A stretch of 64,000 bases of DNA from Leptobrachium leishanense (lineage: Eukaryota; Chordata; Amphibia; Anura; Megophryidae): contig CM019065.1 in the NCBI GenBank assembly GCA_009667805.1, positions 151,564,101 through 151,628,100 on the forward strand, written 5' to 3'. The notes under the pieces were generated by a model. The model was given only the letters and a program-made list of their open reading frames with translations, searched no databases and had not been told where the DNA came from. The translations under genes were made by a program, and so were the position numbers. Of this stretch, positions 231 through 3,844 are shown piece after piece; position 1 is the stretch's first letter, and the number at the start of each line of letters is the position of its first letter.

Positions 231-303
231 CTTCAGGTCCCTGTGGACAACCCCCATTTGGTGGCAGTGGAGGACTGCTTCAAGAATCTGCTGGATGCAA
301 TGA
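231..303 (-). CDS. camk2b: CaMKII kinase-domain exon 6, canonical alpha/beta-type version (6a)
   Basis: This 73-nt exon encodes the helix before the catalytic loop and the start of the loop itself in CaMKII. Read on the minus strand, a pyrimidine-rich tract ending in cag leads into the exon, and the exon ends in AAG before gtgag. With two bases (AG) carried from exon 5 it reads [25 protein letters not shown], which from memory equals the mammalian alpha and beta sequence. The HRD aspartate, the catalytic base of protein kinases (about residue 136 in beta numbering), is included. It is one of two exon 6 copies; the other lies 3.5 kb upstream in transcript order at 3772-3844. The next exon, expected to begin with PENLL, is outside the window. 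The identity as a CaMKII exon is secure; beta rather than alpha rests mainly on exon 2. Confidence 0.95.
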
Positions 304-1589
304 CTGCGTGCAAACAGCAGGGGGGGCGTTAGTAAGGTCTATGTGCGCCCTGCTAGCTGGTGGAGGAGGGGAAGGGGACAGGAAAAGAAGGGTGGGTGTC
401 TGCCAACCAAAAACCAGCTGTTTTAATGGGCTTGGGTAATATCATCTAATATAGATGGTCCCTGTGCTGTGGTTTATACCTGACTTATTTACCAGGCCGT
501 CATGCCAGTTAGAAGTTATCATTTCCACATGCAATCATTTATTGAGGTCATGTAACCATAAGTTAAAATTTAGGGAGAAACAATATGTACGTTATGCGTT
601 ATCCCATATTTTAAACCTATGGTGCAATGACATAAAAGGGTCCAAGTCATGAGTTAACCATTCATGCTTTGGTTGTTCAAAATTGGTCCTCATGGCTCAC
701 CAACAGGATCCTACTCATTGGATCGATTTCTGCTGTTTTGGAAATTTCGGCAGCTCCAAAAAAAGATAAGATGCTGAGAATTTTCCACGGCCTGAAGACC
801 CACTTTAATTCGTGACCCTGCTTGTGATCCATATTAATTTCGAAGAACACAAAGCCCCCCCCCAATAACCCCTATGTTAGTTCCAATCTGTAATATTGGT
901 ACATGGAGAGGAGGTAACTCTATATATTGTCATATCTTTAGATTTTGTGTATCCTGTAACTGCATATGAGTGACAGGTCCCTCAGCTGTGGATTCTCTCC
1001 TGAATAATAAATGTCAACTGAAACATTATTTATGTTGGCACAGCCACATAAATTAAAGAGGGAGGCACTGAGTAAACATGAGGGGAGCAAGACAGCAAGA
1101 AACACATAGAGGACCGAAAGTGACAAGGAGAGTACAGACCTCCGGTGACCTCACTTTGAAGGTTTTGTAAGGGTAAGAAACAGGATAGGGGGACACTGGA
1201 AAAGAGAAAACCTCAGACTGTCAAATGGGAGACCCAGGCAGCTAAAATGCCATCGCATTCATCAGTCGTCTGAAAGTGTTCGACAAATGTTTGGTTTAGG
1301 TGTGAATAATGGTAAAGATCGAAATGTCCTATGTTCGGAGTTGAGATACTGCTGTGAATAGATAAGTTACCCGAAAAAAAATGTTTGGCTTTGATGTGAT
1401 GTTGGTAAATTATGAGTTATAGTGTAAAATGTAGAGATTAAATTATGCCTATATATAAAAATATTTGCTAATGTGTGAGAGGAGTACATTGTGTATAAGT
1501 GTATCACAATGTGCTCTACAAAGTTGACAATTCAGTATGCACATTGCAATGAAGACTTTAGAAAAGGGTTTATACAAGTGTATTGGGGT

Positions 1590-1672
1590 GTTCTAAATTT
1601 GGAGCAATCACCATAGAAACCTGTTGCTGTCCCTAGTTCCTATGGTGATTGATCCATTCTTTCTAGAATCTT
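1590..1672. mobile_element. small palindromic MITE-like element
   Basis: The sequence near 1606 (gcaatcaccatagaaac) returns in inverted form near 1640 (gttcctatggtgattg), and the outer bases ttctaaa/tttctagaa also pair. The whole unit of about 80 bp can fold into one imperfect hairpin. No target duplication is obvious and no coding capacity exists. It is most likely a miniature inverted-repeat element of unknown family. Confidence 0.5.
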
Positions 1673-2039
1673 TGCCTGTACAATGCAAAAATGGCATATA
1701 TTCGGCAAAAGTATCCAGAACAAAATCAAAAACCCAGGCCCAAAAAATTTTGTTACTTGGCATTAAAATGTAGAATGTCATTTATGCTCCTCTCACTGGC
1801 TCCTCAATAGTTCGGGTTGTAAAGTTGTAAAAGGGGAGAAACCACTAGTATGTCCCCTTCAATTCACTCCAAAAAGACTCACCATGTACAACTGTCATAA
1901 TGTGAGGTGGAAGTTCAGTTACCACATAGGAGATTGTCACCAATACACATGAATAAGTAAAATCTAAGATTAAAGTTATACACATTAAGCAGTGAATAAA
2001 TGGAAAGAGAGAGGAAGGCATATAAGACGGTAAGAAGTA

Positions 2040-2590
2040 AGTTTTAGCAGCAAGAGAAAAGATGAGGAGGAAAATAAGAGTTAAAGTCAAGAGAAAAGGT
2101 GGCTATAAAATAAAGTGTGGGTGGAAGGGATAGAATACATACATGGCAGGAAAATGGGTGAGACAGATTGGGCCAGAGGGAAAAAAAGGGAAAGGTAGCT
2201 AGTAAGATGGAAAAAAATAAAGACAGGTAAACAGAAGAACAAGATGTTTTGATTAGAGGTTTGTGACCACTGACCGGTGACCTGGCCATTATGTAAAGTG
2301 TCAGTGAGGAAGATGCAGCCATGGGATTAGCACAGCACCAGCACACAAAAAAAAGGGAAAAAAGCATGAGACACATGGAAAAGAGACAGGAGAGAGCGCA
2401 GGAGGGGGAGGACAGAGAAGAGACAGATGGAGGAGGAGAGAGACTAAAAATAGGTGCCAAAGAGAGCAAAAAAACAACCAGAAAAAAAAAACTGGAGGAA
2501 AGGAGGAGAGGGAATGAGGGAGACAGAAATGGAGAGAAAGAAATTAGGAAACTAAGAAGAAAAACAAGAAAACTGATGAAGAGATAAGAA
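2040..2590. repeat. purine-rich low-complexity tract
   Basis: The plus strand is dominated by runs of A and G (for example gaggaggagagagac and aaaaaaaaactggagg), and the minus strand is correspondingly pyrimidine-rich. The reading frames on both strands here translate to lysine/glutamate-rich or serine/leucine/phenylalanine-rich strings, as expected from composition alone. No gene is supported. Confidence 0.7.
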
Positions 2591-2619
2591 ATGTGTCTTG
2601 AAGTAGGTGAAGGACTTGG

Positions 2620-2742
2620 CCAGGGGTGATCAGCCTTAACCTCCCCTCCAGATGTTTTCGACATCGGCAGTCACACATTAGGTCAAAAGAGTCTCGTAGG
2701 AAATGTAGTTCCAAAACATCTGGAGGGCAGAGGTAGAGCACC
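2620..2742. mobile_element. palindromic MITE, family A (ctccagatgtttt ends)
   Basis: The inverted ends are cccctccagatgtttt on the left and aaaacatctggagggc on the right, with gtagttcc next to the right arm. The same ends recur near 9947, 11737, 12196, 45796 and 61693, which defines a dispersed family in this window. The copies are 120-140 bp without insertions and have no coding capacity. Confidence 0.75.
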
Positions 2743-3771
2743 CGTGGACTACGACATTAGGGTGATGATGAAATAAATTTGGACAGGCGACATTAGTAAT
2801 AAGGCTCTGTCTTGACCTGGAAAAGCATCTCGGTATGGTTTTGGCAACAGCGGTCATTGTTTAACATAAGTCAGAGGGCTACTTTTTTTTCTAGGATGAA
2901 ACAAAACTCATTGTTTCTGGGAGTGAAAATCAGAGGGACAAGTGATGTTGGAAGCATAGAAAGAGACAGAAAGAAAGACTATGTATGGTGGTTTGACTAA
3001 GGAAGACAAGAGAGAAAGGCACTAGAGAACGAGAATGAAAAAGACAGAAAAGTAACAAGTAGAAAAGGAGGGCACAGAGGGCTGGCTAATAGCGACCACA
3101 AGGGATGCATCACATCAAGCATGTCATTAACAGCAGAGTATCTCACTGCATCCAGTGAAAGGCTCTGAACACTTCTCCTGCATTGCTAAATTCAGGGATA
3201 TCACTGCCCAATGCCCCTTGAGAAAATGCCTGGAGCTGTGCATGCTGGTACTTGTAGTTCCTGAAGACAAGTGTGGGTTCAAGCTCACTAGTCTTCTCTG
3301 TTTATTGGAAACTCTAATCTAGACATGAGAGACTTGTCGATGAGAGCAGGAGAAGTGGAATTGAAAGAGGAAAAAGTAGGAAAGTTATAAAACCAGTAGA
3401 AAAATATCAAGATTAAGAGCTGTCTCAATAAACAGAGAGTGGTATGGCTGTCAGGACAAAATGTGGATATCTGTGGAATTGCTGGGAGGCATAAGTACTC
3501 TTTTGGTTTCTGTGTCAGAGGGGTTTATGTATATAAACATAAAGCTACACAGCCTCTCAAACCAATAAGCATTTACCATGCTCCATCCTTGATGCATCCT
3601 CTACCAGTCTCCCGAACCATTTGCTCTGCACGGCCCCAGTCCCCAATCCCCCCATGCATGGCTTACTGGAATGGAAAAGGGAGGTGAAGGCTGCAGTGCC
3701 CACGTGCACAAATCCTCACCTGAGTCCCCCCATGCCATGTCACCCAACCCTCCCTGCCCGTGAATACTAAC

Positions 3772-3844
3772 CTTCAGGTCCCTGTGCACAATGTCACAGG
3801 AGTGTGTGAAACAAACACTTTCTAATATCTGATGGAGACAGTGA
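3772..3844 (-). CDS. camk2b: CaMKII alternative exon 6 (6b), duplicate of the catalytic-loop exon
   Basis: This second 73-nt exon 6 lies between exon 5 and the canonical exon 6. On the minus strand a long pyrimidine tract ending ttttttcag precedes it, and AAG|gttagt follows it. After the AG from exon 5 it reads S-HCLHQILESVCFTHS-CDIVHRDLK: open, same length and same phase as exon 6a, with 14 of 24 residues identical. The last 15 nt (cacagggacctgaag) are identical in both copies, and the catalytic HRDLK is intact. Changes concentrate in the helix and the bend before HRD. Residues HQILESV and DIVHRDLK resemble the CaMKII-gamma exon as I recall it. Using both exons (146 nt) or neither would shift the frame, so mutually exclusive use is inferred. 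Function is suggested by intact splice signals and frame, but no transcript evidence is visible here. Confidence 0.85.

Follow-up and report, generated by a model that had tools for sequence, protein, structure and literature searches.

A tandem pair of exon 6 copies in the CAMK2B gene of Leptobrachium leishanense, a probable mutually exclusive splice switch in the kinase core

CaMKII, of which the beta form is linked to memory, varies mostly in the linker, and its beta variants are described in the accessible part of PMC9772828 as identical in their kinase domains; the work there on frog CAMK2B splicing concerns exons between 11 and 22. A variable kinase domain has been reported for CAMK2D, one of 214 human genes in which tandem duplicated exon substitutions occur; its variable region lies next to the ATP site (PMC9741552, 2022), and four clusters of mutually exclusive exons are ascribed to CAMK2D in PMC5740500. 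For Mapk14, swapping the exons is reported to affect activity and substrate specificity (PMC1431701). Upstream of splice acceptors, AG-free zones of at least 150 nucleotides (nt) are found at 165 of 67,334 human exons, including PTB exon 11 (381 nt) and the nPTB exon (438 nt), and some large AG-free zones seem unconnected with splicing (PMC1431707). Here we describe two tandem copies of exon 6 in the CAMK2B gene of the frog Leptobrachium leishanense, found in a 64,000-nt stretch of its genome (GenBank assembly GCA_009667805.1, contig CM019065.1, positions 151,564,101 to 151,628,100), which we call the window. Searches of open-access PMC papers returned no description of an exon 6 pair in CAMK2B.

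The exon pair is real, and both exons are intact. Exon 6a, the gamma-like copy (3772..3844, minus strand), reads SHCLHQILESVCFTHSCDIVHRDLK and was detected by tblastn with CaMKII alpha and by phmmer, and exon 6b, the alpha/beta-type copy (231..303, minus strand), was detected by tblastn with CaMKII alpha; the first serine of each is completed from exon 5. Both exons are 73 nt long, share the same phase and contain no stop, with acceptors tcag and gcag and donors gttagt and gtgagt for 6a and 6b, respectively, confirming the two exons of an initial annotation of the window at these coordinates. The two copies share 44 of 73 nt and 15 of 25 residues including the serine from exon 5, which agrees with the 14 of 24 residues counted earlier. 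The 6b protein segment is identical to those of the 6b exons of CAMK2A and CAMK2D in the same genome, and 6a is closest to the CaMKII gamma exon (19 of 25 residues), so that 6a is more than a diverged form of 6b. The alpha exon 6 finds 6a with a tblastn E value of 1.4e-5, and phmmer with 6a and short flanks gives the CaMKII gamma chain 2v7o as the top solved structure (E 8e-14). Together with the presence of the same pair in CAMK2D, these two values exclude a chance match. The host gene, on the minus strand of the window, is identified as CAMK2B because its exons 7-10 are closest to the solved human CaMKII beta chain 3bhh (133 of 134 residues identical), while gamma, delta and alpha score lower.

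The reading frame is open through exons 5-6a-7-8-9 and likewise through exons 5-6b-7-8-9. Inclusion of both copies leads to a stop inside 6b after 54 residues counted from exon 5, and omission of both leads to a stop inside exon 7 after 46 residues. With these premature stops, the frame is kept only when one copy is used at a time, and the earlier claim that one or the other is the sole productive outcome holds. All ten residue differences between 6a and 6b fall at residues 116-131 (alpha numbering), before HRD, as had been proposed, and HRDLK is intact in both. Residues 116-131 make up the last part of helix E and the strand that precedes HRD. From the sequence, we consider it probable that the pair is a working mutually exclusive exon 6 switch inherited from a CaMKII gene that predates the separation of the alpha, beta, gamma and delta genes.

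The four CaMKII genes of this animal's own genome, and hence of a single species, served as the comparison set. A search of the genome shows that CAMK2B and CAMK2D carry both 6a and 6b, CAMK2A carries 6b only and CAMK2G carries 6a only; the copies are designated below by the letter of their gene (B6a, B6b, D6a, D6b and G6a). D6a (G000:C1:418174043-418174115) and D6b (G000:C1:418174695-418174767) stand in the same order as the CAMK2B copies, with 579 nt between them, and the gene is identified by its exons 7-8, the letters of which match solved delta chains. CAMK2A lies at C3, 214.9 Mb, and CAMK2G on C6; the CAMK2G exon 6, of the 6a type, is identical to the exon of the solved gamma chain 2v7o. 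There are no nonsynonymous differences among the three 6b exons. Among the 60 solved chains listed, the 6b query scores 68-71 bits with alpha and beta chains and 59 bits with delta chains; the solved delta chains among those shown read ESVNHCHLNG, and no delta-6b or beta-6a structure is among the 60. An ungapped scan with 25 residues over ten introns, with eight shuffles each, from which a copy broken by insertions would escape, found nothing above the shuffles for a 6a relic in the CAMK2A intron between exon 5 and 6b or for a 6b relic in the CAMK2G intron between 6a and exon 7. The scan exceeded its shuffles in the CAMK2A intron between 6b and exon 7 (29 vs 28) and in the CAMK2D intron between exon 5 and 6a (28 vs 27), and neither match keeps HRDLK. 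In the intron between 6a and 6b of CAMK2B, an ungapped match of 25 residues, IHCLMCITLILDFTYSCVLVTISYV, scored 31 compared to at most 21 in eight shuffles, and HRDLK is not kept; this is probably a chance match, the alternative being a third, decayed copy.

The relationships of the six exons were evaluated on a 73-nt alignment over all 105 unrooted topologies. The results show that the nine best trees are the nine that contain the split between 6a and 6b. Trees with both within-gene clades obtain 0.006 in the approximately unbiased (AU) test and 0.016 in the Shimodaira-Hasegawa (SH) test. Only 6 of 20000 dinucleotide shuffles equalled the observed similarity of the upstream introns of B6b and D6b, and 26 of 20000 that of D6a and G6a. 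Among 663 CAG sites in 40 kb of CAMK2D, the D6b site is the best for B6b (39 vs 29) and the D6a site is the best for G6a, by a narrow difference (35 vs 32), each tied with overlapping windows. In addition, gapped comparisons of 6a flanks with 6b flanks gave none significant out of eight at P 0.05, and the ungapped comparisons gave one nominal positive among 30 tests (B6a-D6b upstream, P 0.026). The early vertebrate genome duplications gave rise to the four CaMKII genes, and the exon pair is most likely older than their separation. The simplest history would be one duplication before the four genes separated, followed by loss of 6a in CAMK2A and of 6b in CAMK2G. Rooting of the pair with the fly exon was also attempted, and its matches to D6a (23 of 25 residues) and to 6b (22 of 25) are too close to give a direction.

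The splice signals of the two copies differ. Exon 6a is preceded by an AG-free zone of 495 nt (3847..4341, minus strand) that ends at the 6a acceptor (AG at 3845-3846) and, with this AG, is 71% pyrimidine; the zone before 6b is only 33 nt. On both strands of the window, no other stretch lacking AG is as long as the 495-nt zone, the next reaching 235 nt; in the paralogue regions (110 kb, searched on both strands) the maximum is 250 nt, and the zones at 20 other CaMKII acceptors range from 14 to 102 nt. By its own composition the zone should contain 10 AGs, and zero are observed (P about 4e-5). Pyrimidine-rich 500-nt windows elsewhere (26, overlapping) contain at least 5 AGs each, with a mean of 16. 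The sole CTRAY match for 6a is CTAAT at -418, and TTGAT lies at -459, both of them branch-site candidates only; looser yTnAy matches lie nearer to 6a, at -42, -56, -64 and -91. The length of the zone suggests that the branch point of 6a is distant. An enrichment of motifs for polypyrimidine-tract proteins in the zone was sought and dismissed, as TCTT and TTCT occur below the level of shuffles and the other motifs at about the same level. The frame of 6a is open for 177 codons (3601-4134, minus strand), across the exon and far into the AG-free zone upstream.

Several intronic signals, which like the CAMK2D pair do not figure in the initial annotation, are common to CAMK2B and CAMK2D. The 6a donors of both genes match the consensus at 8 of 9 positions, with a pyrimidine at +3, and the 6b donors of both match at 9 of 9. 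An ACTAAC motif stands 30 nt upstream of B6b (328..333, minus strand), its D6b equivalent is at -32, and the two acceptors also have CGCCCC and GTTTGCA before GCAG in common. ACTAAC is a QKI and branch-point motif, and TGCATG is the RBFOX site. TGCATG is found 114 nt downstream of B6a (3653..3658, minus strand) and at +124 of D6a; B6b has one 39 nt downstream (187..192, minus strand) and further copies at +105 and +217 (121-126 and 9-14, minus strand), and D6b has copies at +60 and +273. Within 300 nt downstream, a reach of the analyst's choice, TGCATG is the sole hexamer of 4096 that is present at all four pair exons, with 7 sites compared to 0.61 expected (Poisson 4e-6). Within the same distance the motif follows all four pair exons, neither of the two single-copy exons 6 and 5 of 26 other CaMKII exons. 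CAMK2D also has a TGCATG at -9 of its 6b acceptor, and G6a has one upstream, at -224.

These signals are consistent with a switch in which 6b would be the default, with its perfect 5' splice site and near-perfect TACTAAC branch site, and 6a the regulated choice, with its weaker donor and the long AG-free zone hinting at a distant branch point. Exon 6a may be picked when activators are bound downstream of it or when 6b is blocked, and the RBFOX-type TGCATG sites downstream of both exons could set the ratio of 6a to 6b by tissue. Nonsense-mediated decay would clear transcripts that include both copies or skip both. With 6a, the beta kinase would acquire a gamma-like form of the last part of helix E, which runs into the HRD catalytic loop; this may alter kinase stability, activation or substrate contact while the catalytic residues are kept. 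Because gamma in this genome has a 6a-type exon only, a beta kinase with 6a should be catalytically competent and gamma-like in this segment. As to inheritance, alpha would have kept 6b and gamma 6a, and delta and, in this animal, beta would have kept both. In a wider formulation, to which we give an even chance, the core splice switch in CaMKII beta would be one half of a CAMK2B and CAMK2D system in which the pair and its RBFOX-type wiring have persisted from a time preceding the separation of the four genes, CAMK2A and CAMK2G having been fixed for one version each. If so, an alternative-splicing choice has been turned into separate genes.

A number of results weigh against a working switch of ancient origin. 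The intron of 3468 nt between 6a and 6b (window 304-3771) shows no evident steric bar to joint inclusion, and the long AG-free zone precedes 6a, not 6b. The 100 nt next to 6a contain no CTRAY branch site, and the 495-nt zone is somewhat poor in GA too (6 vs 10 expected), which, together with its pyrimidine richness, indicates that the lack of AG is partly a matter of composition. The tree evidence rests on 73 nt only, and the best tree without the split between 6a and 6b, which groups D6a with D6b, is not rejected (AU 0.092, SH 0.24). The introns of B6a and D6a show weak homology downstream (322 of 20000 shuffles) and none upstream (14352 of 20000 shuffles), and those of B6a and G6a show none upstream (763 of 2000 shuffles). 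The case for B6a comes from the genomic sequence of one species. Its private changes number 4, 3 and 5 by codon position, which is near neutral, and its terminal branch is the longest (0.79). The Pkinase score of the exon 5-7 piece is 69.0 bits with 6a and 77.1 bits with 6b, and B6a stands about 7-8 bits below B6b, D6a and G6a (75.9-77.1); compared to 16 random six-residue variants of G6a, B6a beats 14, with one tie and one higher, which is not decisive. The near-neutral changes, the long branch and the lower kinase-profile score, and also the beta kinase domains called identical in the accessible part of PMC9772828, are what would be seen if 6a of CAMK2B were a relic of the ancient pair, unused in this lineage and drifting with its sites still unbroken. 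We consider this unlikely: the acceptor, donor and frame of 6a are intact, its downstream TGCATG stands at nearly the D6a distance, and the 495-nt stretch is still free of AG, which drift should have filled in. Five of the six B6a residues not seen in the other copies sit at 124-129 while HRDLK is untouched, and B6a keeps 15 of the 17 positions that are invariant in D6a, G6a, D6b and B6b. When neutral change was simulated from D6a or from G6a, none of 20000 runs in either case arrived at the observed identity free of stops, though the simulation puts all change on one branch, which overstates the constraint and has no bearing on the B6a branch alone. Residues 124 and 129 of B6a are cysteines, for which a redox role is speculation.

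The loose coding constraint on 6a and the absence of a barrier in the 3468-nt intron would also fit an unproductive (poison) exon, the inclusion of which with 6b shifts the frame, stops inside 6b and so lowers CAMK2B mRNA, with the coding content of 6a of minor importance. Such an exon need not retain the 73-nt length, the phase and HRDLK, and CAMK2D keeps the same pair with its coding content intact, so that we regard this explanation as quite improbable. A duplication of exon 6 that took place recently and locally, in CAMK2B of this lineage, as the initial annotation had implied, agrees with the tandem arrangement of the copies in one gene, and the SH test by itself leaves a clade of B6a and B6b unrejected (0.10), a further point against the ancient pair. 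The best tree with this clade is 11.2 log-likelihood units worse, with values of 0.007 in the AU test and 0.003 in the Kishino-Hasegawa test, the intron flanks of B6a and B6b show no significant similarity on either side, same-type exons group across the beta, delta, alpha and gamma genes, and CAMK2D carries its pair in the same order. CAMK2B is most likely not the gene in which the duplication took place, and a recent local event appears very improbable. An inherited, working exon 6 switch is thus the reading that we favor as probable.

The remaining exons in the window, all on the minus strand and located by tblastn with CaMKII alpha, are exon 2 (51630..51719) and exon 3 (14063..14125), both with approximate ends, exon 4 (9543..9597, 55 nt, the VRLHDSISEEGFHYLIFDL region) and exon 5 (4962..5027, 66 nt), the common upstream exon of the pair. 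Exon 1 has no convincing match in the window in the same search. Exons 7, 8 and 9 lie outside the window on the same contig, also on the minus strand (G000:C3:151561457-151561355, G000:C3:151555965-151555882 and G000:C3:151553919-151553825, respectively). Between CAMK2B exons 2 and 3 there is a minisatellite (26459-27463) of 25.8 copies of a 39-bp unit with 98% match, and another tandem repeat (63219-63376) has 7.5 copies of a 21-bp unit with 96% match. Two plus-strand open reading frames, of 254 residues (20791-21555) and 207 residues (41590-42213), bear WTDETK...SPDLNP motifs and are presumably Tc1/mariner transposase remnants. A search of the window with Rfam at gathering scores gave no match.

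Mapk14, Mapk9 and Mapk10 belong to another kinase family than CAMK2B, and their swapped exons lie elsewhere in the kinase fold than exon 6. They resemble the putative CAMK2B switch in being mutually exclusive exons in the catalytic domain (PMC1431701). FYN is similar to CaMKII in that the pair is whole in one gene, with single copies in paralogues after gene duplication, and differs in that the pair concerns the SH2-kinase linker and the N-terminal kinase region (PMC9741552), whereas in CaMKII it concerns helix E and the catalytic loop. The described exons with distant branch points are like 6a in that a long AG-free zone stands before an alternative exon (PMC1431707); the zone here is 495 nt, and the branch points of 6a are candidates from sequence alone. 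If the switch operates as proposed, the two forms would be natural variants with which to test what the last part of helix E and the catalytic-loop hairpin contribute to activation and substrate choice, and the gene family would show in a concrete case how an ancestral splice choice can be divided among gene copies. The initial annotation named no described alternative exon in the kinase core of CaMKII, and the human CAMK2D event in the kinase domain (PMC9741552) is such a case. This event is the closest to the CAMK2B pair, as it belongs to the same family and affects the kinase domain, and CAMK2D of this genome has both 6a and 6b; it differs in concerning delta, not beta, and we infer its identity with exon 6, the exon number being unnamed in the accessible part of the text. 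The kind of switch is thus already known from the delta event, and the CAMK2B pair, with its putative splicing of 6a, would add a further member to it.

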